The notes under the pieces were generated by a model. That model worked only from the letters and a program-made list of their open reading frames with translations, was not told the origin of the DNA and ran no database searches. A DNA stretch of 64,000 bases, from positions 6,397,658 to 6,461,657 of the forward strand of contig CM041196.1 in assembly GCA_023078555.1 (NCBI GenBank), in the 5' to 3' direction. The DNA comes from Ulva prolifera (taxonomy: Eukaryota > Chlorophyta > Ulvophyceae > Ulvales > Ulvaceae). Position numbers and translations under genes: made by a program. This document shows positions 37,772 to 62,345 of this stretch, piece by piece (the first letter of the stretch is position 1; each line of letters starts with the position of its first letter).

Positions 37772-39430
37772 TTACCTGCTCTGAATTGTTGAGCCCTGCT
37801 CGACATGCTCAGCCTCGTCTGAGGCAGCCTCTGGATGAAGGCCCTGCAGCTGCGTTTCACCGCGGCCGCCGTCGTGCAGGTGCTCGACGACCCACCACGC
37901 TCTGCCCAGCAGCGACGTCCGCACCCCCAGCATGTACGCCACCACCCCCGCCGGCGCCGCCACGAGCGCCAGCGCGACCCGCAGCCACTGCTCGGCCAGC
38001 CACGACGCCACGATGGACTCGCGAAAGCGCTTGGCGGGCCTTCTGTCGCTGTGCTTGGACATGCAGGCATGCATGGTCCATTCGCACGTGCAGGCACCGT
38101 ATGGCACGTGCGGGCTCTGCTGTGCCATGCAGGTGCTGTGCGGCCAGACGTTGTCGCCCCATTCGTGCAGCGTGATGGGAGGAAGGCTGGCTTCGGTCGG
38201 CCACAGCAGCACCCCCTGCGTGGGGTCATAGTCTTGTATGCCGGCCACGCACTCTGCACACAGCGATGCGTTTGCCCACAGCATCAGCAGCATGCTGCAG
38301 CTCTGGAGGTAGATGAAAGTTAATTAAAAACCCACAAGGAGAGCCGGTCGGTTGCTTGTCCATGGTGTGTACGATGTTTTGCACAGAGTGGGTGGCGTGT
38401 CTACAATTTCTCAGGCCGAAACATGTCTGAAGATAAATAAATGTCCGGAGTTGGTAGTGAAAGGTATCTACAGGTCAGCAGGTTATACTGCAAAACTGCA
38501 GCAGTAACTTCACACTTCCAGGAGTCTCTGGAGCTGCAACGAGCTGGAGCAAGCACGCACCACGGTAGTCCACATAGCACGCATGCTTTGAGCTGTTCAG
38601 CCGGGACTCAGTCACCATGTGCAGCACGACCAGCGCCGCGAGGACCACGGCCGGGGCCGCGAGGGGCAGCCAGGCGGTCACCGAGCGCCGCAGCACGATG
38701 CGCATGCTGCAAACGTGGCGCCAGGCCCTGCTGGCACGGAGCCGTACGCGTGGTAGGGCACCGCTCCAGCTGGGGTCGGCCCCCGGCGTGTTGCTGTCGC
38801 TGCGTGTCGGTGCAGGCTCCGCTGCGTCCACAGGGAGCAGCGCAGCCGCGTGGTTCGCATCTCTGGCTGAAGCGGCCTGCACAGGGCACAGACACGCCAA
38901 TTGAGCTGACACTGTGATGAAGCCAGCGTGTGCATTGCCTCCGCATGAGGCTCTAGACCTTGAGAATGTAGTGCTGGCTTGATCAGACATCCCGTGCCTG
39001 GCTCGGAAAACGCAGCGGGCGAACGCAATAGATAGGCTGCTTGAACTGGATCACATCTTCCGTAAGAATATACAATAGTACCGTCCGTCTGTGTCCGCTT
39101 ACGATCAGCAGCGACCAGGCGGGTCAAGAATTGTGAACCACAGGCGTGAGGGGCACACCCGGGCTGTGATCTGTTCGAGTATGGCTTTGTTGGCGTAGCT
39201 CAGCTGCTTGGCGTGCGCCCTCATGCACAACCGGAAAAGATGCCAGCACGGCAGCGCCAGCAGCAGCAGTAAACTCCCAAACACGATCGCCAAGATGCGC
39301 TGAACACGATTGACCACCCCGAACTTGTTGCAATCTGCACAGCACCCTCGTCGTTGTTGCTTGGAACTGCAAATCAACAGCGCTAAATGCGCACTCAATG
39401 GCCACAATCATAACGTATGCTTGAAGCTGA

Positions 39431-39478
<48 letters not shown>

Positions 39479-41897
39479 TTTTGACAGGTTCGCTAATCGC
39501 ATGAATTGCCTTTGCCATGCGGCATGCCACGACACTCCACGTGAAGATGGAACTCGCGACCACACCTCGACAGTAAGAGCAGCTGTGTGAAGATCTGCAC
39601 CATCGGAGCTGCCAGCTGCCTGATACATGCATGACGACCATCAACACCACCCACGCTGCCAGAGTGCAGAGCAGCGCAGCGGGCAGCACTGCCCCGAGCA
39701 GCAGCGCAAGCCCGGTCTGGGCCTGCCGCGGCCTCCAGCGCAGAGACCCCACTGGCCACAGACTTTGTACTTCTTCGCAAGTGTCCTCCGAGGAGGCTTG
39801 GGCTTTGATAGGGTTTGCCTGCGCTACTCCACATCTCCCCAGCACGCCGCGCAGCACGCCGCAGCAGCTGCGGAGGCGGGGCAGCAGCAGGCGCGCGAGC
39901 AGCAGGCAGGCGAGCGCTAAGCCTGGCCCGGCGGCCAGGCCAGCCACGGTGTGCTGCGCCTCCACCCTGCCCCATGTCGTAGCATGTGTGACTGCCCAGT
40001 CGAGTTCTGACATCTGAGGCCTGTAAGCACACTGCTGCATCGCGCCGACGCAGCCGTACACACTGTCTGGGCACGCCGCCCTGTGCCCCTCCGATCTATG
40101 TGCCCTGATGCGTACTTGCCTGTACGTCTCGTAGGCGTGCCGATACACGCAACTTGAGGTGTTCCGGAACCCGAGAGGGAAGCGTGAGGGCAGCGCGGCC
40201 TCGTGCGGCCACTGCAGGTCCATCGCGCTGACATTCGCTGCCGCCGCACACCCTACACACCGCACATTTGTATCCTAACAGCAGTGGGAGGCGTATGCTT
40301 CGACAAGGAAATTAGTGCATATTGCGAGCGCCAGTGTCACGTCTTGCACGAGACAGGCACCAGGTCTTCAGGACAAGCGTCGCAAGCGCTTCAGGTCTAC
40401 ATCTACAGCGCTACCTCAGTGCCGAAGACGCATCAGATGCGGGCCGCACCGGCGTGGAGACGGATACACGAGTTCCATTGATCCATCCATATAAACTGTG
40501 CTAAGTGATTGACGGAGGTGGCATGCACCTGGTGGACGCGTTCGTGCCAGAGGCCAGGTCCAAACGTATAAACATAAACTACTGTTGCAGCGTCGACGTG
40601 GCGCAAAACGCCTTACGCATGGCGCAGGACTTGCATGACAGAGTGTGCGCAGCGCACCTCGGAACTGGTGGTAGCAGTCATGGTTGACGGCGGCCTGCGC
40701 GGCCCGGGCGGCAGGCCCTGCCCCCGCCGCTAAAATGGCAGTGACGGCTGAGGTTGTCAGTGGCGCCAGCACGCGCAAAGCCTGAAGCGCTTTTTTGGGA
40801 GCCCCCTCCGACTGGAAGAACGCCGTGGCCGTTGCCAGCATCGGCAATGCCCATATATATGCGCATGCCCGTGCTGCCTGCGCAACTGACCACAAGCTAG
40901 GCCGTTCAGGGGCATCTAGCAGCGGCGTTTCCTCATCAGCCGCTGTGGCCGTGGTGGCACTGTCGGTGGCGCCGGCTGGCTGCGCTGCTTTGCCCTGGAT
41001 GCCTGCTTCAAGGTCGACCCCGCCTGTGGCTTCTGGTGGGCGCGTGTCAGCTTGCTGCAAGGCGGCAGGAGCTCAAGTCAGCGTTTGATCTTGCATGCAC
41101 TGCATGGGTGCTTCTGCACCGAGATGTCTGCATATGCATGCCGCTGCCCACATGTACCCAACAATGCAAATGTAAATCGAAGCATAATTCTAAAACAGCA
41201 ACGAAACACTCAATGTTATTATGCTGTAGTTTCATATACCAAATACCGTACGTTGTTGTTCATTTCAAATCGTAAGTATCAAGTAGAACAACCACAAATT
41301 GGGCATCACAGATTGTTCAAACACTATCAAGGATCAGCCTCCGAGGCTTGGTTAGCGCGCCCACTGGAAGGTGCGAACAGAGAAATGCGGTGTAATGGCC
41401 ACATACAACAGCTACCAATGTCTTCAGATGGCCTTAATCTTGTTCAGAATGCGCAAGTTTGTCTCGGAGTTGCTGCGATTGCGGCCACGGGTGGCGATCA
41501 GGCATGCGCTATATATATAAAGCGCAAGTGTGCTGCCGCGGGCGTGATCATGAGCTGCGCACCTCATGATCCGCCTCGAGGAGCTCCTCGCCTGAATGCC
41601 GCTTCTCGGTGCCGCTGCCATGATGCTCAGCCGCCGCGTCCCCTGATGGCTCCTCGAGAAGGAGCACCGCAGCAGCCCAGCAGTAGTGCAGGAGCACCGC
41701 CAGGAGGGCAGCGGCCGCGGCGGCCGAGACGGCGACGATGCCGCAGATGCGCGCCACCTGGTGCTGGCTGGTCTTCTGTTTGTGGTACTGGTAGCACAGC
41801 TGCTCGTTTCCATGTGCGTCAGTGTCGCTTGTGATGTATCCTCTCCAGTAGTCTGCAGGCACGTTCACAGCCTTTGAAAAAGCACGCAGAGCCACAC

Positions 41898-41935
<38 letters not shown>

Positions 41936-42987
41936 CTGCGTATGCATTGTGAAGACCGTGTTGGGCAAGAATCTCTGTCGTGGTGGCGTCACTGGCGTCA
42001 TGGCAGCATCAAGGTGATCAATGATCAAGAAGCCATATGCTCTCACACACACCCCCAGTAACGCACCCACGCATACCCACACACGCACACATGAGTGCAC
42101 TCATAGACATGCACCCGCAGAACGTGGCACACGCAGACGCCAGTCGCGACAGACACACGCTCCACCCCCTCGCCTTCCCTCCCCACCCCCCCCCTCCCCC
42201 CCACCCGCTCGGAGCATCCGCAGTGGCACACAACGATGCCTCCGCCGCCAGCGCGGCCGAGATGGCCCAACCTGAAATTCCAGCTGCCAGGGGGGGGGGG
42301 GGGGGGGGGGGCGGGGTGGGGGGCACACCCAAATCCCTCTTCGAATATCAACCTCCCACCAACAGACTGCAGAGCCGCCCCTGCGCGACACACGCAACCA
42401 GCAACCTGGGCTGTGGTGGGCAGACATACGTGAGGGCAACTTTCCTGCTTTTGGCGGAGGTGTTGCAAAGCTTTGAGCAGGTAACATCGCGCGCCATATG
42501 ACCGGCGGCGCGGCGTTCTTGGCGCAACCTCTATAGTATACGTGATGCAAGAACGAAGTTGTGATGCAAGTGACAGGGCAGGCCCGGGATCGCAAGCTGT
42601 ACATGCGTGGCACTCACCATCGTAATGTTGGACTCTGTCTGACATTTCGCCGCACGATGCGGACCGAAGAGAGGCCATTCGTGCGAGTATCATTGCCGAA
42701 AGTCCGAGGCTTGCTGCGGCAAAGACCAACCACGGAAGCACTTGCTGCTTCACGCTTGACTTCACTTGTCCCAGGAGAGGCCCAATTTGGCTAGGCTCCG
42801 GGTCATCAACAGAAGCACGTCGTGATGACATGAGATGCTGCTGACCGTCATCTGGCACTGCTCCATGCTCGACTCTGAGGCGAGCCCGGGGCGAGTGTGC
42901 TCGCTTCATCGGCGCGGTCTCGGGTTCTCGCCCTTCAGCTTCAGCGCTTGAGCTGGATGGCAATGGTTTCGGCAAGACTGCGTCCAT
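37772..42987 (-). CDS. Tandem multi-pass membrane protein, copy III (four TM-ectodomain-TM repeats)
   Basis: Seven exons: 42987-42618, 41852-41563, 41054-40658, 40252-39566, 39334-39159, 38876-38561 and 38253-37772; phases 1-0-1-1-0-1; 905 residues. ATG at 42987. Membrane segments: about 83-103 and 157-185 (repeat 1), around 275-333 then in exon 4 (repeat 2), late exon 4 and exon 5 (repeat 3), exons 6 and 7 (repeat 4). Exon 4 holds CAAAANVSAMDLQWP with an Asn-glycosylation site; exon 7 holds CVAGIQDYDPTQGVLLWPTE and the conserved AYMLGVRTSLLGRAWW. DEETPLL at about 260-266 resembles an acidic dileucine sorting signal. Exon 3 lacks an ATG and begins at a phase-0 acceptor, so the ORFs are exons of one gene. 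Introns carry long poly-G and poly-C runs. Family not recognised; role unknown, perhaps a receptor, channel or transporter. Exon model moderately to highly certain. Confidence 0.82.
39433..39478 (+). repeat. Poly-C run in intron 4 of membrane-protein copy III
   Basis: 46 consecutive C on the plus strand, i.e. poly-G in the pre-mRNA, between exons 39566 and 39334. Confidence 0.95.
41900..41932 (+). repeat. Poly-G run in intron 1 of membrane-protein copy III
   Basis: About 33 consecutive G, 48 bp upstream of exon 2 in gene orientation. Confidence 0.95.
42290..42311 (+). repeat. Second poly-G run in the same intron
   Basis: About 22 G, followed by further G-rich sequence; a C-rich segment (42179-42205) lies about 85 bp to its left on the same strand and could pair with it. 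Confidence 0.9.
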
Positions 42988-44759
42988 CTATCTCAATGCA
43001 GGTCTTAGAGCTTTGGGACTAAGGGCTGACGTACGACGGTTTCAGAGCTGGCGAAGATGGAATGGGACAGTCGCGCACTCGTGCAGGCACCTATGCCAAC
43101 AGGTGAACGGCTCTGAAGCAATAACAATGTAAATGACACCACTGATTAGTGTGTTCTTCACATGTCAGCCTCCGCCGGCAGACAGCGGGAACAAGCCTGT
43201 AGATGCGCAGAGCAGAAGTCGAACGCTACCGGAGGCAAGCTGCGATTAGCTACTGCTCTGATATAGAGACAAGTGATCAAGCCATGATGCTGATCTTGAT
43301 TTGATGTCAGCTGTTTTCAGATCCACGTTTTGCCTGCCAAGATCAGGCCTACGGAGACATCTGGATCTGCAGCTGCTACACGGCTCCGACACCGCGTACA
43401 GAATTCCGCTTCACAGCTGTACGATGGTGCCACAAAGTCTCTGGATTTCACGACCTGGCGCGATTGTGGCTACCTTGACGGCGGCATGCTTCTGCGTCGA
43501 CGTGGCTACAGCGTGGACTAACAGCCCCTCTTGAGTGTGCACACAGCTTTCAACACTTGTCAAATGCGCATTGCATGTTAGCAACTCTTCGATATAGATT
43601 TAAGGCCACATCATCCTTCGTCCCTTGTCCACATCGATGTACCTGCAGTAGCAGAGTAGCAGCTTGCGGATATCTCGGACATAGCAGAACTGGCCAGACC
43701 CGCAGAACGTCCAGCAACAGCCACGAGCAAACAGCAGAAGCTGTGATTGGCGAGCACGTGGACAGGCTCAACATTTTCATGATTCCCTTGAGCTGCTTCC
43801 AGTGCTCGCTCTGAGTAGGACTTTTGAACAGGATGCTGCCAGGAGCAGAATGCGGTAGAGCTGCGAAGCACACTGCTCCGTCTTGGTGCAACGTATGCGG
43901 GGCACTGTCACTTTGCCCCGAGGCCCGGATGGCAGCTTTGCTGAAGCACACAGATGGGCCTAGGTGGCATCAAGTGGCATTGAGATGTGGTAGTCTAAGG
44001 ACGACACCTGTGCTGCGGACTTATTTATTTCGTTGAGGCCTGGTCACCCGTCGGGTCACTGCGTGTAAAACCCGTCCCTGAGCTGCAAGAGAGGCCCTGC
44101 CAAACAAAAGAGCCACAGCGATGCATGACACAGCCACATTTGGCATATGTGGTCCCGTTGACTTGGAGTTGTCAATGTCCAATAGGATACGGCTCAGTAT
44201 ATTCAGATTTACTTTACTTTACATGCGCCGCAGCCTCCATCCTGCAACATCGGAGGTTCTGAAGTCACGCTGCAAACGCACTGTTTCGGCGCCGGTCCAA
44301 TCCGTGGGGAAGAAGCTGACGAAGCCAGCTCTCCAAGAATACCATTACTGCTACTACTACTCATGACGTCACAAATCGAGAAAACATCTCAGCTGAAGGA
44401 CAGGCCTGCGCCGACCCCAAGCCCGCCTGCAGCCTAGGTCAGCACCCGCAATAAGGCCCGGTGGGCAACCAGCCCTGACCAACGACAAATCTCACACTCG
44501 CCAGACGAGCACGCACCAGAAAGTCCAGCCATGCGCTACCCCTCAACACTCATCAGTGACAAGTAAGCACACACCCACCTGGCTCCGCCGACACTGGCCA
44601 TTCCTTGTAGCCGCAACCCTCCACCTTTCCAGCCTCACGCCAACACGCACAGCGTAAGGGCGCAGCCACAGTGTGGAAGCATTCAGGGACACAGCGGCCA
44701 CGTCATAACTCAGCCCTAAACTCCCCAAGCTGCAGCATGCCTGCTCAAGAACAGCACGC
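42988..44759. other. Intergenic between membrane-protein copies III and II
   Basis: Upstream flank of copy III and downstream flank of copy II. No gene is supported. It holds the 43600-43880 segment duplicated at 20.8-21.05 kb. A strong promoter motif was not recognised. Confidence 0.4.
43600..43880 (-). pseudogene. Partner of the duplicated segment at 20785-21050
   Basis: Minus strand encodes LDVLRVWPVLL and CGQGTKDDVALNLYRR. It resembles the segment at 20.8 kb in both nucleotide and protein terms. No flanking exons were found, so it is described as a remnant of unknown origin. Confidence 0.4.
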
Positions 44760-47700
44760 CTACGGCTGCTCCAGTAGCGCTAGCGGCAGGGGTGCGGTGT
44801 CATGCATACTCGCAATCACCCACCACGCCCTCCCGAGCAGCGACGTCCGCACGCCAAACATGTATGCCAGTGTCACAGCTGGCCCCGCTGCCGCGGCAGC
44901 CACCCGGAGCAGCCCCGCCCGCCACCCCCACGCCGCCCGCACGGACGACCTCCAGCCGTGGCTCATTCCCGCGCAGATCATCATCTGTTTGTCGCATTTA
45001 CAGGACAGAGGAGGCTGGGGGGCGGCTCCAATCTGGGTGCCAGGCCGGGGTGGTGGGGTCTGGTCCACACCAACTGAGGGCTGCGCGGGGGTGGGGGACG
45101 GCTCCTGCGGCGCGGCCGTGGCCACTGGCGCGTCGCAGAGGCCGTCGAGGTGGTCCTTCGTGTGCATGCTCTCCCAGGCGAACGTTGGTGGGAGGGCGGC
45201 AGCGGTCGGCCAGCGCAGGCGGCCGTGCATGCCGCCAAACTCTGACATCGACGCGCCGCAGTCTGCACAGTCCACTGGGTCAGCCGCTGGCGGCTCCGGA
45301 CCCCTAGCTGCAGGAACGAGGACCTGCCAGCTATACATGTGCTGCATACATCTGCCTGGAAAGCAGGCACCGCATGCGGCCAGCAGGGCGGGACGGTTGT
45401 GCATCGACGCATTTGACACAAACGCTCACGCGCTTGCAGCACCAAAACAATGTACGAGGACGCGACTGCAGTCAAGGTCAGCACGTGAGCAGCATGTGGA
45501 CCGGGTGATCGTCTGGAGTGTCAATTTGCGATTGATACAGTGCTCCCAAGGACAATATCAGGGGCACTTACGGGGGGAGCCGGTGATGGCCACAGGTGCG
45601 CACCGCAGGGACAGTCGACTCGGGCGCACCTTGGTAGTCGGCGTAACAAGGCCGCACGGCGGCATACTCCCGCGCAGTGGTGACGACCTGTAGCGCGACG
45701 GCCACGGCCAGCACGGCCAGCGGGACAGCGAGTGGCGCCCAAGCGGCCTTGGACTGCCGCAGGTGGCGCCGCACCGTGCCCCCGCCGTGCGACAGCAGGC
45801 GGCGCACATACATGTAGCCGGCCGTGTCGCAGCATGCATGCGGTACATGTATGGAGCACGTGTGTGGAGCGGCTGTTGACGGCACCTCGAGCAGCGCGAC
45901 CGTGTGCGTGGCATCGGCTGTGGATTCGATCACTGCATGGCCTGGGGGAGACGGCGGCGCTGGCAATTCTGACTGTACATGTTCATGGCCCCCACCATCT
46001 ACCTCTGTTGGCTCTGGGCTGACTGCTGCGATATTGGCCGATGAAGCTTGTTGAGGGTCCCCAGTGACTGCGTCTCCTGGCTCTGAGCTGCTGGCAAGCG
46101 TCTCGGCTTGCCCCGACTTTGGAGGACTGTCTATGATTGCCTCTGTTGGCTCTGGGCTGCCGGCCAGTGTCCCAGCAAGCACAGCATCTGCTTCATCTCC
46201 ACCCTGCATCACGCTGACTGTGTGTATGATGGACACGGTGCACCACGATGCTTTGGCCTCTTCCCCCATTCCGGACCCCCGGAACACACGCCAGACCGTG
46301 CGTGCTGGGGACCTGTATCCCAGAGAAAAAATCCATCTGAGTGCTTCTAGGATAAGGGGCCCCAGAGCACGGATGCCACTGCATCCAATAAAAAAAGAAC
46401 TCTTCTTTCCCGGTAAAACGATCGGAGCGCCCTCCTCGGTCATGGCAGTCACCCGCCCATACACGATGACCACTTCAGCTTAACCCTCAGCTTGAGCGTG
46501 CTGAGTGTGCATGCATGTGGACACAGCAGATCTGCCTGCCAGTGAGCGGGCTTGGCTCTCCGGGACGGCCACCCCAAATTCGAGGGCACACGAGGTTCAC
46601 CTGAAATGTCATGTCAACTGGGAGTGTCATCACAATGCCGTTTGCAGCGTGCACACCTGCCCCACGTCTTGATGTTGCGCAAGAATGGCATCCTGTGCGG
46701 CGAAGAGGCGCTCATGGAAGGGGCGCATGCTCCACAACGCCAGCCCAAGGCATGGCAACGACAGCAGTGTCGCTACAATGAATCTCGTCGCCAGGTCCAG
46801 ACGCGCCTGCGCGATGGCCTGTGCCCTGTAACAGCCTGCACGCATGCCGCACGGCTTCGACTCCGGTGCTTTCGGGTGTCGAGCAGCTGTATACTATAGT
46901 ATGCGCACGGAAGCACAAGACACGAGCCTGCGCGTTTGCCAATATTTTGAGACGGGGACCAGAAGGCCCACATTAATTTGTTGAATAGACGATGCACAAG
47001 TAGAAGGAGGTGATGATCGCATTGATACGTACTCAGGCACAAACATGGCGGGGCTGTTCCACCTCTTCTCACATCATTTGAGTTGATCGATATCGCTTTC
47101 AAGTCAGGCCTGGGATCCAGGAGTTGTTGAACAGGGCAGGCTGCTTGTGGTCCATTACATACACATGCGTAAGCCTCTGACGCCATGCCAGGGGGACAGC
47201 AGCAGCAGCACACACCTGGATCACGATGCTCGGGGTCAGGGTGCAGCCTGTGATCCTGCTCACACTGATCCCTCTGCGCCTCGCTGTAAGTCGCCAGGCA
47301 CTTCAGCAGCACCGCCGAGACCGTCACCGCGAGCTGGAGCGTCACCGGCAGCACCCCCCCCAGCAGCAGCCGCCCCGCCGCCCGTTGCCGCGCCCCGCGC
47401 CACTGCGCCACCTCGTGCACGCCCCGTCGCAGCGCGTCGCCGGCATGCATTGCGCGGGCGGAGGCGCCAGCCAGCACGGCCGCGACGCGGTGCAACGCGG
47501 TCGTGACGATGCGGTTTGACCGCCGCACGAAGAGCGGGGTCGCTGAGACGAGGACAAACGCCAGCACGGCGCACGGCACGATCGTGGTGATGGACAATGC
47601 GCGCAGCGCCTCCGCCGTCCTCCATGCCGCGGCCCTTTGCTGCATCCATGCATGCGCGTCTGCTGCGGGTTTCATGGCACAGGTTTGCAGCTGCTGCTCA

Positions 47701-49697
47701 CAGCATGCGATCTCGGCGCCAGTCGTGCACCGGGGATCGTCTCCAGTTGGGAGAAAGCCCTGGATCATGTCGACAGGCAGCGCGTCCGGAAAATCGTAGA
47801 TGTCGTTGACCAGCCAGTCGTCGGGCATCCGCAGGTCAACGTCAAAGCCATCTGGGGACTCCGTGGAGAAGGGGGCATACAGGGTTTCGACAGTGTGGAA
47901 ATCCAAGACGACGGGGAACGAGGAAGGCAGGGCGCCCTCGTACGGCCATCGCAGCGCCGGCCCGGCGGCGTGGTCCCCAGACGCCCCGTGCTCGATGCTT
48001 TCTACGGCACACCCTGCACATGAACTCGGCGGATGCATGTCCATACTATGGACATAAATGCATGCATAGTACGCATGCATGCACGCATACTTACACAGCC
48101 GTGGAGCCGGGTGCAATCTCCAGTTTCAGGTCATCCACTCACAACAGTAAGTACGTTAACGCTAACGCAACATGCACATGGATGTGGCATCATGCAGGCG
48201 CGATGACGTTCCCCCAGCCCACAGCTCATTGTACTTCCATCACAGAGATGCATGCAGTAGGGTGGCCATGCCCACAGCGGCGCATCTCATTGCCAGGGGC
48301 GAGTCTTTTTTCTGAATGGGGTGTGGCATGTAGACCAATTGAGCCCTCTCGCAGCACGGCACGCGATCGGCAGCACAGCACGCAAATAGCAGCCCAGCAC
48401 GCAGCCCACAGCACACCTCGGTACTGCATGTAGCATCGATGGTTCAGCACGCTCTGGCGGTAGAGGATGTCTGCGGCCACAACGGGCGACGCGATGCCGG
48501 TGGCTACCGGGGTTGCAAGGAGCGCCAGTGCCAGCGCCCAGCGCAGTGCGCTCCGCAGCGGCGCTTCTGGATTTGGGGCCGCGACTGAGTCAGAGCCGTG
48601 TGCTGCGTTGCCGAGGAGGCGCGCTGCGGGGGATTTCGGCGGGCTCACCGGGCTCTCTGCTGTGTCCACTGGGGTGCTGCCACCGGAGTCATCATCCTGC
48701 GACACCGTGCACTGTTTGGATCCTCGTGATGAGCCCCCGGCCGTTGTCAGCAACCGATGCATGTGACACACTGTGATAGTGCTGCCGTCATGGCGCCATC
48801 TGCATGCTTGCATGGCGGCGTGCACGCTCAGATCGGACGCAAGACTCGCTGTTCACCAGCGTTCTTGTCAAAGTCAGGCTGTATCTGCACTGTGCAAAGT
48901 CTAGAACTGTAGTAGGCTGGCTCGAGTCGGCACTTGTGTGAGCAAGGGACCACATGCTGCCTTGAATACCTTGTAAAGGGCACCGGTGGAACCTCTACCG
49001 ACATGTCGGTGAGAATTTGTCCGACTCCGAGTCAGTGTTGCATGAGTGTGCACCCTTGGGGACGGAGTAGTTGCAGTCGATAGTATTGAGGGTTATGGAC
49101 TCCATACGAGAGCATTGACGCACTGCACAATTTGCACATGTTGGAGTGGCGGAACAGCTCCGCACCTCCTCAGTTGCCTCAGCTTGCAGTGTATGCAGGT
49201 CCTGTCGCAACCGCAACTGCAGCTCGAAGCCTGGGTGACTCCCGCTTTTGCGACTGGATATCCACAGTAGGGAAGGGAGCATTTGAAACAGCAGGACGAC
49301 CAGCAGTAGAGACGTATAGCTTGCGCGGAGGCACCACGTGGCGACTTTGTGTTGCACTGTGTCCCACGCTGGCGTGTGGCCGCACATGATGACGTTCCCA
49401 AACCCATCTGGATAGTCGAGAAGGACGTACACTCTCCCTGCAGAACCAGGCGCACAATGGGTTGCATTTTAGCTAGACATGGTCCTCAGAGAGCACCAGC
49501 CTTGACTGCATGGGCACAAAGTTCCCTTAACGCAGCTACAAATCAGCCATGCTAGATGCTAGCTGTGACAATATGCCGTTTTAGCGGACACCAAAGTAGG
49601 CCTGAGTATGCATCGCTGCTCGAGGTAAATGGACAGGCTGAGAGCTGGTCTGGCACATCAGGCGGGTAAGGCAGCTGCAACATGGCTAGATGCATAC

Positions 49698-49784
<87 letters not shown>

Positions 49785-50335
49785 TATATATAACTGCAAG
49801 GGACCGTATGGAAGGCACCGCAATGTCTTGCGTCACCTGGCCAGCATGGAGTATGTCAGGTGAGGTGGACCGCGTCAAGCAGCGCGCGTGGTTGAACACG
49901 GAGGTTCAGCGCAGTAAATAGATACAAGACAGCCATGTGCATAATTGTACCTGCTCCAAAGTTGCTGCACGACTGTGATGCGCCCCGAAGCCATGCCATG
50001 CACTCGAGCGCGAGGCCCGAGCAGAGACAGCAGAGCGGGATGGGGATCAGCAGGACCCAGCAGAACGCTTCAAGCTTCTTCTCACGTGGATCTCGCGGTA
50101 TGCTGGCGCTGTATATCGGCATGATGTCAGCGGCAGGGACCTGATGAGCTCTAGCTCTGGATCTGAGCAGCTCATGCTCGGGCCCAAGAAGCAGCATGAC
50201 GTCTTCAAGCCCGTGCCCCATGATCTCGACCGGGTATGCATCAGCATCGACAGGGCTGTCTCGACCTGGGGCTTGCCGCTCCGCATCTTGCGGTTCCGCA
50301 GCTCCAAGAGCCGCGCCGGTACCAGCGGTCGACAT
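44760..50335 (-). CDS. Tandem multi-pass membrane protein, copy II
   Basis: Seven exons: 50335-49951, 49437-49166, 48696-48417, 48013-47216, 46835-46657, 46203-45630 and 45262-44760; phases 1-0-1-1-0-1; 996 residues. The ATG at 50335 has an in-frame stop upstream, so it is a true start. Repeat 1 is the most diverged copy (FGNVIMCGHTP in the ectodomain). Repeat 2 opens GCAVESIEHG with RWPYEGALPSSFP. Repeat 3 exon reads GCYRAQAIAQARLDLATRFI followed by a membrane segment with SLPC. Repeat 4 has AYMFGVRTSLLGRAWWVI. Exon 6 is longer than in the other copies because of imperfect SPEPTEAI/SSEPGDAV/SPEPTEVD linker repeats. Gaps between the former ORFs are only 150-200 bp, as expected of introns. Same unknown function as copies I and III. 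Confidence 0.82.
49704..49790. repeat. TA dinucleotide microsatellite in intron 1 of membrane-protein copy II
   Basis: Almost pure (TA)n over about 80 bp, between exons 49951 and 49437. Confidence 0.95.
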
Positions 50336-51396: not shown

Positions 51397-54300
51397 ATGG
51401 CCCCATACAGCGCGAAAGTGGTGCGATCAAAGAGCCCAAAGCATTACGCTATTTTTGAGTAGTTGCTTTGACACGATGCTGGAGCATGGCACCTTGACGC
51501 ACGCTGCGGAGTTGAATGCGAGATGCAGTTTGTTCCGCGGACCGTCGCCCGCACAAACGGCGTACACGAGCTCAAAGCATCTGAGGTATCAGAAACTTTA
51601 ACAGGCAGTCATAGGAGCGGGAGCGGCAGGCATCACTGCAGTCCGTGAGCTTCGCCGGGAGGGTCACCAGGTGAAAGTGTTTGAGCAGCTGGCGAGCATT
51701 GGCGGTGTGTGGGTCCTTGATGGCAACGTCGAGAGTGACCCTCTTGGCCAGGATCCAGACCGAGACGTCGTGCACAGCAGCATGTATGATTCGCTTCGCG
51801 TCAACCTTCCTCGCGAGCTGATGAGCTTCTCAGACTTCCCCTTCTTGCCCAAGTTTATGAAGGTGCGAACGCCGCTGCACTTGTTATCCGCTTATCTTCT
51901 GTAGACGGATCTATGATGTGGAAGACTGACGTCGTCGTAGTGTTACAAGGACAAAGGCAGCAAGGCGTCGTCGTAGTGTGTGTCGCGCTGTGTGCTCCAT
52001 GGTGCTGGGTAGAGCTTGCTGGGTCAGTGGACGCTGCCAGTGTCTGGCCATGGTGCACTGGAGTCTGCGCTCGTGCCACGCTAACGTCCATGCACCGGGA
52101 ACGCGAGCAGCACAAACACCGCCCAGGAGCGTCGGCGACGTCTATGCATTCACATCCACCTTCGCCCGAGTGCAGACTTCCCTGCAGGTGCATGTATAGA
52201 TCTATCCGTCGACTGCAATTGCAACAGTAGCAGCCACGCACTCCACAGGGCCATGGTGATTAGTGCGCACCTGGGTCGATCGCACGGCAAGACATCTTGC
52301 CGTGCGAGTGCGTGGCTGCGCCTGTTGCCGTCTCCATGCTAACGTAAACCGCTGAATCGACGCAACGGCAGTGTAGGGCAGATCAATCGACGCCAGACGA
52401 TACCCCCACCACACCGAGGTGCGGCAGTACCTCGAGGCGTTCGCAGATCACTTCGGGGTGCGCGACGCGGTGCACCTCCACACCCGCGTCACGGGCATCC
52501 GGCCGGTGGCCGACGCGCCCGCCGCCGGATCAGAACCTGGCAGCTCGCCGAATGCCACACAGTGGGAGGTCCGCACGCAGCGCGCACCTCAACCTGGCGA
52601 GGGCTCCCCAACGGCGGCAGACGCGGTGGGCGTGTATGATGCCGTGATGGTGTGCAACGGCCACTACAGCTCCCCGAGGACGCCAGATGTGGCCGGGATG
52701 GAGGGGTCCCCCTGCAAGTGTGAGCACAGCCACAGCTACAGGAGGCCTGATGGGTATGCGGGCAAGCGGGTGCTGATCGTCGGCGCCCATGCGTCAGGTG
52801 CGAACATCCCAGTGTTCCAGGCAGAACTGATCAGCATCCTGTTTCAAACAGGTTGTTTCTGCAGCATCCTGTTTTTAGTTTCTGCAGCATCCTGTTTTTA
52901 CAGCATCCCATGTTTCAAAAACAAAGGCGGCGGGATGGGCCGCGCCGCGTCCAGAGCGAGCGTTGCAAGGCCTTTGCAAGGCCACATCCATGCAGTGGCA
53001 CAGCACGGGTCTGCTGAAGCTGTACATGCCTTGCTGATGGTACGATTGTGTTTGAAACAACAGATGCGTGATGCCATTGCTGGCGCTCGTGTGGCTGCCC
53101 AGTCTTGTGCACGGTGGCCAATGGTCAATGGCCACCTTTTTGGGTTAAAAATCGTTCTCGGGAGGTGGCAGCCACAGGGGGCAATCCTTCATACGCATGC
53201 CGAATCGCCACCGCCGATTCCGACCATTCGGCTCTAGCAGAAAGAATGTTCTTGAAAGCTGCAATTGTGACGGCTAGCATTGCAGAACACTCCGTCGGCA
53301 TGCTAAGTCAGGCCTGTGAGCTCGATGCTGCGCTGTTCGTGTGCCTGATCCGCGGTCGATGTCGCGGATCCATGTATCTGCAGCTGTTATCACATCATGA
53401 GCTGAGCTGCTGCGTGCCTCGATCGAGCCAGTGTCACGCGATCTAGTCTTCGACACATGCACATGATCGTGGCCCTACGCGCGCGGGTGTCTCTAAGCTT
53501 GCTAGGGCGTGCTACAGGGGAGGACATCGCGTGGGATATCGCACCGTATGCATCGGCAGTTATCCTGAGTGCTAAGTCCTGGATGAAGGCCGAGTTTGCG
53601 TCGGAGACGGGAGCCTTTGGGCCGAAGAGTAACATGTATAGACGGCCATGGATCTCCAGGATGCACACGGATGGCTCGGTGGAGTTCGAAGACGGCAGCT
53701 CGGTGCCAGCCATCGACATCGTCATGTTCTGTACAGGTGGGCATTGACCCTCGGCCCCCACAGGCCGGCCGTCTGCTGTGCGGCAGATGCACGGCCATCA
53801 CTCCGCGGTCATGCTGCCTTGCAATGTCATCTGCTGCCACCATTCAGACATTCGACGTGCTACAGGCAGCTGGGCGGTGATGCAGGGTATCACTACACCA
53901 TGCCGTTCCTCACGGACGATATCGTGTCGACGGACAGATCGCACGTGAGGCCGCTGTACCAACACCTCCTACATCCTGACTTTGGTGCAAGCCTGTCGTT
54001 CATCGGGCTGCCGTTCAAGGTCGTTCCATTCCCGCAATTCGAAGTGCAGGCGCGGCTGGTTTCCCACCTGCTGTCCGGCAAGGCCGCCCTGCCGTCCCAG
54101 TCAGAGATGGAGGAATGGATGGGCTCTCTGTACGGGTACGCCGCACCAGCCTCCGCTCTGCACTCCTGTGCGGCAGCTCTGGGTCGCCTTGCATCATTTT
54201 TAGGACTGCCATCCAGATATTTCACCCAGATATTCAACATTGTTCTATGTGGTCGGGCGCGCCGACCCAACACTCCTGTGTGGCACATCAGAGCCTCCCA

Positions 54301-54925
54301 ACGCTGTTGTTGGGGCGCAGCCTCCACCCGAGGCCGGGGGCCACGCCATCAGGGGCCCAGCCCCCGCTGCCACATGCTCTTGCAATTGCACATCCCGTCA
54401 CACGGTGATGGCATACAAGCATCCCCTCTGCAGTGTCACCTCGTGGCCCGCGGGAACCGTGTACGGCTCATGCGCATACCAATACACGTCATCTGCTCGT
54501 GCACAGCTGATCTGTGCCAATTTGCGGCCACGCCCGTTCGAATCGCAGCTCCAGGAACGCTGCAAGGTGTCCCGACACATGTGCTGCTGATGCCGAGTGC
54601 GCCAGAACGGCACAGCCCGAAGGACGGCGCGTCATGCAGGCAGGCCGATGAGGGCCGACTGTTAGACCGGCACGTGCACCAGCAAGGCACCGCGCACTGG
54701 GACTACAACGACGAGCTGGCATTGCTCAGCGGCTGCGAGGCAAGGACACCAGAGTGGCGACGAGCGATGTGGCTCCATGCCTTTGAGCTCAGGCAGAAGT
54801 ACCAGCCCACGGAGTACCGGGACAAGTGGGATGACCCGGCTTCTGTGGCTGAGGCACATGCAGCATTCCGGGAGCTCTCCAGCAAGGCGGGCAAGCTTGA
54901 AGACGGTGCTACAGCGGAGTCCTAG
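51397..54925 (+). CDS. Flavin-containing monooxygenase (FMO)
   Basis: Exons 51397-51420, 51605-51862, 52377-52797, 53518-53736 and from 53886; phases 0, 0, 1, 1. Splicing gives the start MAPYSAKVAVIGAGAAG with the FAD GxGxxG motif, then VFEQLASIGGVW, FSDFPFLPKFM, RRYPHHTEVRQYL, VMVCNGHYSSPRTPD, HSHSYRRPDGYAGK (FMO signature region), VGAHASGEDIAWD (second dinucleotide site), DIVMFCTGYHYTMPFL and LSFIGLPFKVVPFPQFEVQA. The end matches other FMOs: WDYNDELALLSGC and TEYRDKWDD, stop at 54925. It should oxidise N- or S-containing substrates using NADPH and FAD. At least one more intron probably lies between about 54230 and 54680; its borders are unresolved, although the frame is open throughout. The usual F.G part of the FMO signature is replaced by CKCE. 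Confidence 0.85.
51941..51972 (+). repeat. Head fragment of the retroposon-like repeat
   Basis: Only the head tgttacaaggacaaaggcag plus a few bases is present, within intron 2 of the monooxygenase gene. Confidence 0.6.
52049..52187. repeat. Degenerate short relative of the inverted-repeat transposons
   Basis: Segments cgtgccacgctaacgtccat and caccgggaacgcgag, followed by cgcccgagtgcagact, follow the order of the arm ends of the 1443-3324 element, but the interior is almost absent. It lies in intron 2 of the monooxygenase gene. Confidence 0.5.
52217..52327. repeat. Foldback sequence in intron 2 of the monooxygenase gene
   Basis: A perfect 12-bp stem with a 2-nt loop (CGCACGGCAAGA/TCTTGCCGTGCG, 52281-52306) is nested in longer imperfect arms (gcagccacgcactc at 52227-52240 against gagtgcgtggctgc). 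Confidence 0.8.
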
Positions 54926-56728
54926 GCTGGTAGGAGCGGTGCATGCTGCTGGCTGCCAAGTAGCCTCCTCTGGTACAACAATTGCATGACCATTGATTTC
55001 TAACTTGGCCTAGTGGCAGGGTTGTACTGTAGTGCCTGGTTCCCGAGTTTCCTGTTGTGCCAACTTTGCCTTTCGGGGTGCCTTTAGGGGCGCCGCTATG
55101 TCGCGGCAGCATGCAATGCCGACACAGTCCAATGCGAGGTGCTGCTAGCATCGCGGAAATCGGTGGGTTTGGTACTTCGCGTAGGCTTTGTGCGCGCTCC
55201 CGGCACGAGCAGCAGTATTGTCACTTGGCTGCCCCCACCACGGCGGCCTCCCTGATGCCGCCAGTGGTGACTTGCGCACATTGGCTGTGGCAATCCAGTG
55301 ATATGGCTGCTGTTCCAGTGATATGGAAGCTATACCCCTGTTCCAGTGGTATAGCTGCCATATCACTGGGTTACCACAGTGGCAGTGATCTGCACACATT
55401 GTCAGATCTTCCTGTGGACCTACTGTCAGGAGACACTGCAGTTTTTGCCGCGTCCTGAATCATTGTTACTGGTTGTAGACCCGATGCCTGTTCTCTGCAT
55501 TGCCACTTCTCTGTGCTGCCGGGGCGGCCTGTGCTCTGCAGGCATGTACTGTCGCCGAGACCGTTCAACAATTTGTGGTAGCGTTCCTGCCCACGCAGCA
55601 CCGCCAGCTACACACGGAGCACCTGCCTTCGCATTCGCCGCCCACAACCCTGCCGGGACTGAAATAAACCACTCGTAAGGTTACCGTCTCCGCAGACGCG
55701 GCCCCGGGGAACTCCTGCACGCCGCGTGCTGCGCCTCCCAGGCCCAATCGGCGTTGTCACCGTCTATGCGGCTGCCGGCACAGGCGTGGCACATCAGAGG
55801 GACGTGCTGCATGAGGACTACTTCGAGGACAGAGACGTAGCACCACGGGCATTGCGCATGAAGAACACACACCACATTCGTTTCAACACCGGCAATTCGG
55901 TTATTCAGGTAGCTGTATCATCACGATGGCTGCAGGCAGAGCCACACGACGCAGCGCTGGCGTACGACAAACCATAGTGCCACAAGCGGCAGGCCAGCAG
56001 CATTCCCGATCACCATCAGCACGTGGTCCGGATCCAGTCCATTCGGAGTCGTCAATGCCATCATGTCATGTCATTTTTAAGGATACGGCTAAGTAAATCT
56101 ACTAGATTACTTCACATGAACATGTTGCCCTCGCGACATGCGCGCTCAGACTGTGTTTATCCGTGCTGCGGCAGGTGACCAGCCTCCTTGTGGGGTGGTG
56201 CATGTTTGTGTTGAATTTGACAGGGACTCACATCTGCAGGAAAGCCTTCCACCGCCACCTCTTGTACATGCGCGTCCAAGCCTTCGTTGCGGAACAGCTC
56301 ACTTTACAATTGGTGTCATGACCGACAGATCTACCTGTGCCACCTGTCCTATGATGCGGAAAACGGCAAAGAAAAGATGGAAATTGGTGTGGGCTTGGCG
56401 AGCCCCCACACCGAAAAAAAAACGGCATCGTTCCAGGCAAGTCGAAAAAGCTCTGCACAGATCTAGACACCGGTGGCGAACTTCTGCACAGCACACTCTG
56501 GCCTGATATCGCGATGCCTCAAGGCTGCATACTCACAGAATACAAGACATTAATTAATAATTATTCAGTCATACATCACAGGCGCACTGCATGCGGCGCT
56601 GCCTCGCTGACCCTGCCCATGCGCCCCCTGCCAGACGAGTTGGATCGTAAATGCACCACAAGCAGCAGTCGAGCACAGTCCAAAAATAGAGCAAGTGGCC
56701 ATGCATGCAGTTGTAATCAAGTAGCACA
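54926..56728. other. Intergenic between the monooxygenase and membrane-protein copy I
   Basis: Downstream flanks of two convergent genes. No gene supported. It contains the inverted repeat at 55295-55369. A run of 9 A at 56415 and several AT-rich patches are otherwise unremarkable. Confidence 0.4.
55295..55369. repeat. Inverted repeat with internal near-repeats
   Basis: Arms CCAGTGATATGGC (55295-55307) and its complement (55357-55369) pair perfectly around a 49-nt loop. Within the loop 'gttccagtgatatgg' and 'gttccagtggtatag' repeat the arm, so several alternative foldbacks are possible. Confidence 0.85.
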
Positions 56729-59700
56729 CTAGAGCTCATTGTTGGGCACATGCGTACGCATATCTGCAGAGGCCTCTATGCGGCGCCCCACATCGGGAAC
56801 TGTGAGCTGAACTGTGCCACTGGGGCTGCTGCCAACTGCGCCACCTTGCAGCTCTTGCTGCTGCCCCGCACTGTCGACGTCACCGCCCGCGCCCTCCGCT
56901 CCACCATGCTCATGCAGCAGCTCGATGACCCACCACGCCCTGTGGAGCAGCGACGTCCGGACCCCGAGCATGTACGCCACCACCACCGCCGGCGCCGCCA
57001 CGAGCGCCTGCACGCACTGCAGCCACGCCTGCGCTATCCACGAGGCCATGATCGACTTGCTCCAGGCCGAGTACTCGCGGCCCCAGCTGCCGGCGCCGAT
57101 GGTGTGGCTGCGCCAGCCGCCGCCGCACTGCCACATTGCGGCCTCGCAGATGCATGCCGCGCTCTGGCGGTGGTCGATCGGGAGGCGCCAGAGGCAAGAG
57201 GGTGAGCCTGGAGGGCGCCACACGCGGAGGAATGTGCGGGGCAGGGAGTCTTCAGTTGGCCACGCGAGTTCGAATGGGGTCGGGTCATACTCCAGGACAC
57301 CCGCCACACACTCTGCACCTAGCGTCGCGTCAAGTGCAGATACGGCTCTCACTCAGGACGCCAAACCGCTACATGCGGCTCGCCCATTCGTTGGTTGCTA
57401 TTAGTGTTGAACTGCCTCAATTGCAGGAATTACATTGCTGCAATTCAGACAAACAGGCAGCAAGGAAGGCGCCCCGTGCAAAAGTGCAGGTATCCGGTCA
57501 AGGCAAAACAGTCAAGGCAAAACAGGACCTGATTACATGGAACATTTATATGTGATTTATATAGGCCCCACGTCGACGATCCCGCTGCGCTGCGAGGCCC
57601 CACGTCGACGATCCCGCTGCGCATTGACTCTCGCCCGTGAGCAGCGAGGGGGCCCGGCGAGCAGGGACATGAGGGGCGCCGCGGCTGCAGCTGTGAGAAC
57701 CTCTCTCGAAGCAGAGCGTACCTCGGTACTCTGCATAGCATGCCGATTTCCCGGCGCTGTGGCGGACATTCGTCACCACGTGGAGCACCACCAGCACAGC
57801 CAGGAGGGTGGCAGGGATGGCAAGCAGCAGGCAGGCGGGCCATGACGGCCGCAGGCGCCGGCGCATCGAGGCAGCGCTGCTCCACGGAGATTTCCACATG
57901 CTGGGTTTGGGGCTCTGGCGTGCAAGAGACTCTTCGCCGTCGGGTGGACTTACATCGGCAGGAACCCCGCCAAGAGGGGGCTCGACAGTGGTGGTGCTTG
58001 ACATGCTGGTCTGCACACCGTGGAGCTGCATTGTGCAGCAGGTGAACTGTGAGGATGCTGTGATGCAGGAGTGGCACTCGCCCTGTTGAAAAGACGACAT
58101 TTGGCAAGGGATTAATGGGCTCTAGATCTGAGCCCACAGCCCGAGCGGATCCACACAGACACCCAGCAGTGCCTGGTTGTTGTTGTGAGATTCCGGCACC
58201 AGGACAATCGAGGCTCCCAGCACAAGGAATCCAAGACAATTCTAGACTGAGACAATTCTCTACGCTGGCCCTGCAAGCCACTGGCATGCTGCAGAGATCT
58301 GGCCCAAGCTTGAGACAGGTTGTGGGATTCAGGCCATCGTACAGGCCGCCTGCTGGAGGGGGCGTCAGCCATGCCCTCAAACTGGCAACGAGGCCGGTGT
58401 ACCGAAGACTACAATGAGCAGATGCAGACCTCGCCTGACGCTTCCTCCAAGAGAGCTTGCTTTGAGAGAGCAAGCGGCCGCTGGTAGGGTCGCATGCACC
58501 TCACCGTCAGGCGGTGGCATGGCACAAACAACAGCAGCACCACCACAGCGTACGCCCAGCCGAGGCCGAGCTGTACCCGCCTGGCAACTTGAATCTTGTG
58601 GCATACTGCACGGCAAAGTGGTTGCTCATGATCAGAGGCGTGGCGATTACACAGGAGTGAGTGGGTCCAGACAAATGTGGCACGGTCACTGAGAGATCGC
58701 CCAAGGGCATATATTCCACATGCACTTTACTGTGCTTTACACAAAGGGCATATGCTTGGCCCCCACTGAGGAGCAGCGGCCCATTCCCCCAATCCCATGG
58801 TACATCCTGTAGTGGTGTGCGATGCATAAACAGATAGATCCCCACGATGGGGTACCACAGCCTACATTGAAAAACAATGCTTGATGCGTTTCTACATAAA
58901 TAAACCGTGCAGCTCTGAGATGATGCTGACCTGATGCAAGTGTGTAGCATGTATGCTCAGCTTATCGGCAAGCCCTCCTGAATGATTCCAATGCAAACTT
59001 GCAGATGATGTGATTTCTCATATGAGAGAGCGCATGCATGGGAGGCGGTGAGCAGTTGACCGACAGGGAGCACGGGAGTGACAGCCGCGCCCGGAAAAGC
59101 TGCCGCAGATTCGTGCCGGCACGAACCTGGGATTGCCGGGATATGGAATCGCGTCGCCTCGCAGGATTCGAGCTGCCAGGCGCCTAGAGGCCGGACAAAT
59201 ATGAGCAGGCTAGAAGAGTAGGCAAGACTGGACAGCAGCACCACGGGAAGTGTGGTGCCCAGCAGCAGGTCCCGCGCTGCCGTCCTCTGCTGCGGGCTCC
59301 AGCTCGGCCACTGCGCAAACACCGGCACGCCGGCGCGCGCGGCCACATCCGTAGCGGCATGCATGGCGCGTATGCGCCAAGCAGGAGCTTCTGCACCAGC
59401 ATCGGAGGCTGCTTCATGTGGGCCGGGGGAGAGCGCATCGTCCACAGCTCGCGGCGTGAATACGTACGCATGCAGCCCGCGCAGCACGCCGCCCAGCACG
59501 CCGCACAGCGCGGTCAAGGCCGCGCAGAGCTGCGGAAGGAACGGCACTGCGAGGAGGATGCAGGCAAAGACTGTACATGGTACTACAGTGATTCCTGCGA
59601 CCGTGAACAACGCCTCAGTTGCTGCCGCGGAGGTGGCCCTGTGTGTGCGCCACTCCTGCTCGGATTCTGCCGGCTTGTATGCGCATTGAAGCATGTCGTC

Positions 59701-62345
59701 CATGCATTGAACGGCTGCGGCGGGGCACTGGGTGCGGTATCTCAGGTCTTCTGTGCATGCTGAGGTGTTGAGAAAGCCGAGGGGAAAGTCGGCAGGTACG
59801 GCGCCCTCGTACGGCCACTGCAGCTCCACCGCACTGACGCCACCTGCCGCAGCGCAGCCTGCATGCATGTACATGCATGGGCAGATGCGTTTGGCGTCCT
59901 GGCGCATGAGCTGGATCATGGACGCATCTCACACCCGGCTTCGGGCCATGAATTGACCAATCATCTGGCGAGCTGGCAATACAACAATCACAACGGACCG
60001 ATACTGTCAGCTGCTTGTACGTGCACTGATCACTTGCTCTTAGTCAGCGGACTGAACACAAGGCGGCGCTGGTAAGGCCATGCGTATGCGGTCCGTGTTC
60101 GAAACATGTTGACAACCCACCGGCGCCGCAGTTTTCGTTGCACTGTTGTACAACCAGAACCAGGGTGGTGGGCCTTGACAGCGCGCCAAGCGCCGGCCGC
60201 TCTGAGCGAGAGTCTGTGCTGTGAGGCAAACCTCAAACACACACAAACGTGTGAAGCATTGTTCAGAGAAACTCGTGATGTGCATGTGTGTGGAGATTGC
60301 GAGTGGAGTGAAACTGCCAGCATTGACGTGTGCAAGCCACGGCAGGCACAGCTGCGGCGTCGGTGTTCACACCGCGATAGGACTCGTAGCAGTCGTGGTT
60401 GACGGCGGCCTGCGCCCCGCGTGCGGCCGCGGCGGCCCGCATCGCAAGTACAGTCGTGGCGGCGGGAAACGCCATCAGCACTAGCACGAGAATCACTCGC
60501 GGCGCCGGCTCAAGCGCCACCTCCAGAACCGCAGACGCGCCGTCCGACCACATGCATTGGCTGACCCGGTGGCGGCCACGTGAGTGCTGCAGCAGAGGTA
60601 TTCTCGCAGTCGGGCTGCCTGCGCCGTCGGTGTGGAGACCCTCCGGGCTGCTGTCGTGCTCGGCCTTCTGCACAGCAGCACATGCATGACGGTCATGCGA
60701 AATGCATAATCGTGCGGCAAGTATTCGCAGCGTCTGTCTGCCGCGACGAAGAAACGTCGGCGTTGCACGGGCAGGTGCATGTCTCACATCTACCGTATCG
60801 GGTGGCCTGTCTGGCCTCGTATGATGTATGGCACATATGGTCGTGCCAGGGACATGAACTGCGTCGTTGTATGCGTCATGTAGATGTATTCGTAAATTCA
60901 TTCAAAAGGCACCGCCGCCACACACCATTCATCCGCACGGTGTGTGACTTGCCGTTGTCTCTGCATTGACCACCAGCAGCGATGTGGCTCAGCTGTGCTG
61001 TAATCCTGTGCGCCCTCCCGTTGCGACCTGCGTCTCCGGCCTTGTCCTTACAATTGTGTGACAGATCGTGACGCGGACCGGTGCACACAGCAGGCCCCGC
61101 AGTGCTGAGTCAGCTGCAGAACAGCACCTCAGCCATGATGCCCACAGCCTCCTTGCAAGGCATGCACTCCGCCGTTCCTGCAGCTGTGAGCTCCTCAAGC
61201 GGCTCCTGGCTTTCGTGTGCATGCTGCGCTGCGGCGGTGCGGCGGTAGTGGTGGAGGATGGCCAGGAGGGCCTGCGCAGCACCCAGCATGCACGCCATGA
61301 AGAAGCAGACGCATGCCGCATGGTGCTGGACGGTGGAGCTCTTGGGCGTGAAATAGCAGACGGTCTGATTGCCAAAGACGTCAAAGCGTGGAGTGGACTG
61401 GCCTCCCCATGCATGCCCTGCAGGCACAGCTGACATCAGCATGTGGGTGAACTCGAGGTATCTATCTGTCTGTTGTGAAGTGTATATACGACAGATGTGC
61501 ATCAGCTTCGAACTTCAAAGAACAGAATAGCGATATCATGTAATTTCATGCTGCTATGCAATTTCATGCTGCTATTTGGCAAGGCGCCAATGGATTTGCA
61601 CCGAAATCCGCATACAAATGCAATGTAGCTGTCTGTGACCTCCACTGGACCTGTGGTGTGCCCAGGTAGATTCCTCTCGCGGATGGTACCTACGATGGGA
61701 TTTCTGCCAGGCTAGACAGTGCCTGGTGAGACAATTGACCACCTCAGCCACGCAGTACAGGTGCACGCTACAGCGACATCTTCCAGAGGTCGTAGACATG
61801 AAGCGTTATAAGTTGCATAAGGTTGGATTACATACAATGGACGGATCCCATGCGGAGTGTTGCGGCTTGTGGTGCAAACGGCGTGACCGTATCAGCTGAA
61901 GTGATCCCTAACTGGGTCACACACTTTTCTATCCGCACGCGGCCCAGTTGCAAATCGCACCATAATAGTCACTACACTTGCATGCTTCTGCTCGTCTATG
62001 AGCCATGCGCTCCAGCACCACAGCGGAGCACAGCAAAGAACATGGCAGCGCAATGAGGAGCACTTGAAGCAGTAGTCGCGATGTCAGGCATCTGCCGACA
62101 ACAGCCTTCGTCATCATGCTGGTGACCCCTTGATCGCTTTTCGCGGAGCGATCGTCAGAACGGTCTAGGCCTGCAGCTTCACAACCGGAGTCCGGGCTGC
62201 ACATGTCGCGGCCATTGGCAGCGGCATCCACCTTGCCGTCATCATTCGCAACAGCAGGTGTTGAATCATTCAGAGGATGCTCCACTGCCTTGCTCGTACA
62301 CGACAAGTGCACACCGACAGTGCAGCTGTCGTCTGGGCGCCTCAT
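56729..62345 (-). CDS. Tandem multi-pass membrane protein, copy I
   Basis: Seven exons: 62345-61961, 61417-61128, 60667-60373, 59858-59127, 58605-58430, 58010-57722 and 57312-56729; phases 1-0-1-1-0-1; 916 residues. ATG taken at 62345. Repeat 1 has the ectodomain FDVFGNQTVCYFTP (Asn-glycosylation site). Repeat 2 has CAAAGGVSAVELQWPYEGAV and LNTS. The repeat 3 exon, easily missed because it is short, reads VCHKIQVARRVQLGLGWAY with VPCHRLTVRCMRP. Repeat 4 has CVAGVLEYDPTPFELAWPTE and AYMLGVRTSLLHRAWWVIE. Exons 2 (290 nt) and 5 (176 nt) have exactly the lengths seen in copy III. Copy I is closer to copy III than to copy II in these features. Function unknown; topology suggests four luminal or extracellular Cys-containing loops and cytosolic linkers. 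Confidence 0.82.

Follow-up and report, generated by a model that had tools for sequence, protein, structure and literature searches.

We describe here a local cluster of genes for a multi-pass membrane protein in the green alga Ulva prolifera. The window (the whole stretch of DNA that was analysed, 64,000 nucleotides, C1:6397658-6461657 of the assembly) carries three of the genes, called A, B and C, and three more (D, E and F) lie past its right end. These sequences very probably represent a cluster of at least six genes, each for a protein with about eight transmembrane spans (TMs) and, where complete, with seven exons, a judgement that covers both the gene family and its architecture. The protein family is undescribed in every search made here. 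The evidence comes from the agreement of the gene models with one another, from a motif that splicing creates twice in each protein, and from the homology between two ectodomains of the same protein.

Gene models and extent of the cluster

An initial annotation had proposed three paralogous seven-exon genes of 905-996 residues on the minus strand. Independent rebuilding from the minus strand between 37.5 and 64 kb returned the same three genes, with products of 905, 996 and 916 amino acids (aa), together made up of 21 exons. The 18 introns between them all have GT..AG borders, and their phases are 1-0-1-1-0-1 in each of A, B and C. The exon sizes also came out as claimed, that is, 290/272/290 nt for exon 2 and 176/179/176 nt for exon 5 (A/B/C). 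The models, all on the minus strand and in window coordinates, are as follows.

Gene A, 42987-37772, minus strand: 905 aa, seven exons
A exon 1, 42618..42987, minus: N-terminus (modelled as cytosolic), TM1, start of ectodomain 1; from ATG to a GT donor, ends in phase 1
A exon 2, 41563..41852, minus: ectodomain 1, TM2; 290 nt, AG/GT borders, ends in phase 0
A exon 3, 40658..41054, minus: TM3, CYHQFR at the end; ends in phase 1 within the motif CY..FR|GC
A exon 4, 39566..40252, minus: ectodomain 2 (LQWPHEAALP), TM4, cytosolic loop, TM5; 43% identity to C exon 4; its donor is the least certain border
A exon 5, 39159..39334, minus: ectodomain 3, TM6; 176 nt; acceptor set by phase
A exon 6, 38561..38876, minus: TM7, CYVDYR at the end; ends in phase 1 within the motif CY..YR|EC
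A exon 7, 37772..38253, minus: ectodomain 4 (LLWPTEASLP), TM8, AYMLGVRTSLLGRAWW, stop; 154/160 residues identical to protein match P0003
Gene B, 50335-44760, minus strand: 996 aa, seven exons
B exon 1, 49951..50335, minus: gene model
B exon 2, 49166..49437, minus: 272 nt
B exon 3, 48417..48696, minus: TM3, CYMQYR; acceptor set by phase
B exon 4, 47216..48013, minus: ectodomain 2, TM4, TM5; 229/265 identical to P0001, similarity fading about 12 residues beyond the donor
B exon 5, 46657..46835, minus: ectodomain 3, TM6; 179 nt
B exon 6, 45630..46203, minus: long cytosolic loop, TM7, CYADYQ; acceptor set by phase
B exon 7, 44760..45262, minus: ectodomain 4, TM8, stop; similarity to P0006 starts near the acceptor
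Gene C, 62345-56729, minus strand: 916 aa, seven exons
C exon 1, 61961..62345, minus: gene model
C exon 2, 61128..61417, minus: 290 nt
C exon 3, 60373..60667, minus: TM3, CYESYR
C exon 4, 59127..59858, minus: ectodomain 2, TM4, TM5; 219/234 identical to P0002, similarity fading about 12 residues beyond the donor
C exon 5, 58430..58605, minus: ectodomain 3, TM6; 176 nt
C exon 6, 57722..58010, minus: TM7, CYAEYR; a second in-phase acceptor lies upstream
C exon 7, 56729..57312, minus: ectodomain 4, TM8, stop; 127/131 identical to P0008, which spans its later part

Five borders were set mainly by phase (the A exon 4 donor and the acceptors of A exon 5, B exon 3, B exon 6 and C exon 6). Two versions of B were in use. 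The form with the exon 7 acceptor 45 nt earlier (B = 1011 aa) served for the paralogue identities, the six-frame comparison, hydropathy, the full-length and exon 7 family and database searches and the profile comparisons of halves and units; the 996-aa form served for the gene models, the identities to P0001-P0006 and P0008, and the counts of motifs, loops, sequons and invariant residues. A and C share 36% identity over 825 columns (expectation value, E, 6e-91), B and C 29% (E 5e-29), and A and B 24% (E 3.5e-15). When the three gene regions were compared in six frames, 38 of 42 matches (E<=1e-3) lay more than 70% inside modelled exons on both sides; one stretch can be counted more than once here, as a reciprocal or an antisense reading. 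Simple repeats occur in several introns: TA units repeat over a long part of B intron 1 (window about 49710-49790), and A has long runs of C and of G in its introns 1 and 4 (about 41900-42310 and 39430-39480).

The three genes of the initial annotation are thus real, but the count is too low for the cluster as a whole, which has at least six genes. The 56 kb past the right end of the window carry D on the minus strand and E and F on the plus strand. E is complete (811 aa, seven exons) and has intron phases identical to those of A, B and C; D and F were recovered in part, and exon 1 of D was not found. GT..AG introns and the size of the genome mark the host as a eukaryote, and its splice-site style and base composition would suit a green alga. 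The assembly searched comprises 88.9 Mb in 44 contigs, and the queries were three exons of C (2, 4 and 7), exon 4 of B and of E, and the protein fragments P0007 and P0009. All genome matches listed with E<=1e-3 fall at about 6.435-6.515 Mb of C1, and those listed elsewhere in the genome have E 0.066 or worse. Copy counts are lower bounds, because only the best candidates were scored. A match on a small contig, C25:1155-1322, equals the E exon 2 match in identity and E-value and may be a second copy, a duplicate or an alternative haplotype of gene E. As read from the sequence, this is a local cluster of at least six predicted paralogous nuclear genes. Intron 2 of gene E contains a CA/TG dinucleotide repeat of about 0.9 kb (L009 about 3350-4330). 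Other genes are interspersed: a flavin monooxygenase-like gene lies on the opposite strand between B and C (window 52419-54925, plus; PF00743, E 7e-16 in one open reading frame (ORF), just under the cut-off in the next), and two PLAC8-like ORFs lie between D and E (L012:55-573 and L013:2880-3572; PF04749, E 1.3e-9 and, below the cut-off, 4.6e-5).

Spliced motif, internal repeat and membrane topology

The motif CY..(Y/F)(R/Q).C occurs exactly twice in each of the proteins A, B, C and E, and it always spans introns 3 and 6 (8/8). As this motif is common to both repeats and is created only by splicing, it is the best internal proof that the exons are joined. It is followed, in ectodomains 2 and 4, by L.WP....LP (with LP in most copies) and then by C(x6)C. 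The two cysteines of the motif and the C(x6)C pair thus make four invariant cysteines in each of these ectodomains, which would form two disulphides in each. The motifs WP.E..LP and AYM(L/F)GVRTSLL.RAWW, pointed out earlier, were found again in A, B and C.

Profile comparison places the repeat within the protein. The N-terminal and C-terminal halves align in hhalign with a score of 87 (probability 97%, E 3e-11), while 60 shuffles reached at most 21 and the reversed profile 17.6. With each half divided into two TM-ectodomain-TM units, unit 2 against unit 4 scores 86 (maximum of 20 shuffles, 16), and the exon 4 profile finds the exon 7 profile at E 2e-8. The intron in units 2 and 4 has an identical motif position and phase. 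Ectodomains 2 and 4 are, on these alignments, internal repeats.

In the hydropathy profiles B and E each show eight peaks. A and C show a ninth, which adjoins TM3 in A (1.27) and TM4 in C (1.83). Eight spans were modelled because the other eight peaks recur in all four proteins and B and E lack the ninth. In this model both termini would be cytosolic, and the four loops between TM pairs would be outside or lumenal. With the N-terminus inside, the ectodomain loops (1363 residues) carry six of the seven sequons and the cytosolic loops (1657 residues) one. Outer loops hold 75 of the 113 loop cysteines and cytosolic loops 38, and lysine plus arginine within 12 residues of the TMs account for 74/384 residues inside and 52/384 outside. 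Taken together, the sequon, cysteine and charge signals are moderate and consistent with the N-in model. The four TM-ectodomain-TM units of the initial annotation remain the best reading, but A and C have nine peaks, and homology can be demonstrated for units 2 and 4 only.

Relatives and known families

Relatives were sought in a set of 5.8 billion proteins, by a search that needs shared exact words and in a collection that may hold few spliced eukaryotic proteins. Full-length C found nothing at E<=1 among 7987 candidates scored, the exon 4 profile found two matches (7998 candidates) and the exon 7 profile seven (7995 candidates). All nine (P0001-P0009) are fragments from contigs of less than 5 kb. 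Seven of them (P0001-P0006 and P0008) correspond closely to A, B, C or E, at 82-98% identity. Besides the identities given with the exons above, B matches P0004 at 157/168 and P0006 at 135/164 residues, and E matches P0005 at 119/121. The other two are more distant: P0007, closest to E exon 7 (56%), may be the counterpart of F, and P0009, closest to A exon 7 (62%), may represent one more paralogue. In P0001 and P0002 the similarity covers exon 4 and then fades near the donor, though the open frames continue, so that the exon 4 donor gains some independent support.

Other collections gave no relative: prokaryote contigs returned 168 and 18 pattern matches and viral contigs 26, none of them a relative, and plasmids returned no match for window 37772-40265, the sole stretch tried. 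Rfam gave no match at the gathering threshold, and a tRNA search found none. Within the databases searched, the family appears so far to be confined to this genome and its close relatives.

That no named family fits had been claimed from the start, and a strong profile match had been set beforehand as the observation that would overturn the claim; Pfam, NCBIfam and the PDB sequences yielded no convincing family match of any kind. In Pfam, the six exon 4 proteins gave only sub-threshold matches, each in a single member (Claudin_2, E 0.014; Amastin, 0.04; DUF2976, 0.14; PIGO_PIGG, 2.2), the five exon 7 proteins only a sub-threshold Cyt_bd_oxida_I (E 0.035), and the four full proteins only a sub-threshold AflR (E 0.089). 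The best NCBIfam match was ThiW (E 0.061), in one of the four full proteins. Among PDB sequences exon 4 matched none and the full profile matched five (best E 1.2); exon 7 matched 12, aquaporins and beta-lactamases among them (best E 0.047). An assignment to the aquaporins (MIP family) was rejected, as the NPA motifs of that family occur in none of the four proteins and the PDB matches cover one helix-sized stretch at E 0.047 or worse. The literature search gave nothing relevant to such a family among the matches listed.

Elsewhere in the window there are three further features. A Ty1/copia-type retroelement occupies 8700-14092 on the minus strand, in two adjacent ORFs, with reverse transcriptase (PF07727, E 5e-57) and Pol_BBD above the cut-off and integrase core and gag just below it. 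An exon of an animal-type haem peroxidase lies at 32810-33736 on the plus strand (PF03098, E 5e-42). Alanine-rich ORFs with cysteines that recur, as judged by eye, lie at 25295-27047 on the minus strand and perhaps encode a repetitive secreted or structural protein; the two pieces scanned had no Pfam match.

Origin, function and competing explanations

The simplest history is that of a doubled four-exon gene, because units 2 and 4 are homologous and carry the intron at the same motif position and in the same phase. Two copies of an ancestral four-TM, four-exon gene (phases 1-0-1) would have come to lie end to end, and the exons that met at the junction would have merged into exon 4 (4+4-1=7 exons); units 1 and 3 would since have diverged beyond recognition. 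As for function, we tentatively favour a protein of the cell surface or secretory pathway, with two paired ectodomains that may bind or sense an external ligand or a neighbour (in recognition, adhesion or sensing), diversified by local duplication. Rather unlikely, in our view, is the bolder proposal that these are surface receptors or adhesion proteins of a new, eight-pass class. The ectodomain would then have a fold of a new kind, closed by disulphides (CY..YR.C - L.WP.E..LP - C(x6)C), and the protein, born by doubling of a four-TM gene and expanded locally in one algal lineage, would possibly recognise partners or microbes.

Several observations weigh against this picture of a doubled, eight-span surface protein. 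The models of A, B, C and E were read from genomic sequence alone. Unit 1 against unit 3 gives no detectable homology (score 15.5, with shuffles reaching 18.5), and the four other unit pairs are also non-significant in profile comparison. The case for a doubled four-TM gene comes, for this reason, entirely from units 2 and 4 and the phase symmetry. If the ninth hydropathy peak of A and C is a real span, it changes their topology; the positive-inside signal is modest, and the sequons are few, with none in B. Structure prediction on whole exons gave a predicted local distance difference test score (pLDDT) of 49 for exon 7 (10 sequences) and 45 for exon 4 (5 sequences), too low to use. A, C and E are kept at 94-98% in close relatives, which argues somewhat against a fast-evolving recognition role; only B (82-93%) and the comparison between paralogues show faster change.

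The main rival is a transporter or channel, in which two pseudo-symmetric four-TM halves form an eight-TM pore and the ectodomains act as gates or assembly surfaces; we consider it possible but doubtful. Internal duplication is usual in transporters, and here the N and C halves are homologous, with good conservation of TM8 and its flank (AYMLGVRTSLL) and of the start of TM5 (LLLG.VLP). On the other hand, the Pfam, NCBIfam and PDB searches gave no convincing transporter match, none of the invariant residues within the eight TM spans of A is charged, and the homology between the halves is centred on the ectodomain and the TM that follows it.

It is improbable that the protein is a doubled, very diverged member of a four-TM superfamily of the claudin/PMP22, amastin or tetraspanin type, for which the sub-threshold Claudin_2 and Amastin matches speak. 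Claudin/PMP22/EMP proteins resemble it in having a TM-flanked, cysteine-containing ectodomain, and in one paralogue the weak profile similarity extends over the last part of ectodomain 2 and over TM4. They have, however, four TMs against about eight here, where there are long cytosolic loops and no GLW-C-C. Claudins fold as a four-helix bundle with an extracellular beta sheet, and the exon models, at pLDDT 49 and 45, are too poor to compare with it. The Claudin_2 match (PF13903) reaches 15.6 bits where the cut-off is 29.1, and concerns C exon 4 only, one of the six exon 4 proteins and none of the four full proteins, and the first-loop motif of claudins, GLW..C(8-10)C, is absent from all four. 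Amastins are likewise tandem-arrayed multi-pass surface proteins, but the genes here have introns and encode about twice as many TMs; the match (PF07344) scores 14.3 bits against 27.2, in B exon 4 only (1/6, and 0/4 at full length), and the amastin signature is found in 0/4. With tetraspanins the likeness is one of architecture only: between their TM pairs a short loop is followed by a long cysteine-rich one, and units 1-2 and 3-4 would suit that order. Here TM2 and TM3 are separated by a long loop (85-134 residues), and no ectodomain has the CCG of the large tetraspanin loop: the single CCG in the four proteins lies in a cytosolic loop of A. No tetraspanin match was found in Pfam at E<=5 for the 11 exon proteins or at E<=1 for the four full proteins.

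Could the exons belong to separate smaller tandem genes, for example exons 1-2, 3-5 and 6-7? In A, C and E the exon 2 frame meets a stop within six codons past the donor, where a two-exon gene could end, and introns 2 and 5 sit in poorly conserved cytosolic loops. Still, this division is very unlikely. As the initial annotation had observed of these internal "genes", inspection by eye finds no ATG at a conserved place before TM3 or TM7, and none whatever in B exon 3 or E exon 6. All four complete genes join their exons across introns 2 and 5 in phase 0 with GT..AG borders, their exon order is identical, and the homology of the halves fits one doubled unit. Least likely is a decaying pseudogene array, to which the partial models of D and F, the missing exon 1 of D and P0009 (its tail does not align, and its best genome match, over A exon 7, crosses two stops at the end) might point, but the frames of A, B, C and E are open over seven exons and exons are kept at 82-98% in relatives in seven comparisons.

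The array illustrates how gene finders that are blind to exons cut genes into many pieces. Multi-pass membrane families of the orphan kind abound in the genomes of algae and protists, and the practical weight of one more is limited for that reason. If the reading of a doubled surface protein is true, it would nevertheless provide an undescribed family with exon-level evidence of its origin by internal duplication, and a conserved ectodomain amenable to expression and structure solution. It would also add a surface protein family to this lineage, whose surface proteins are, to our knowledge, little known.

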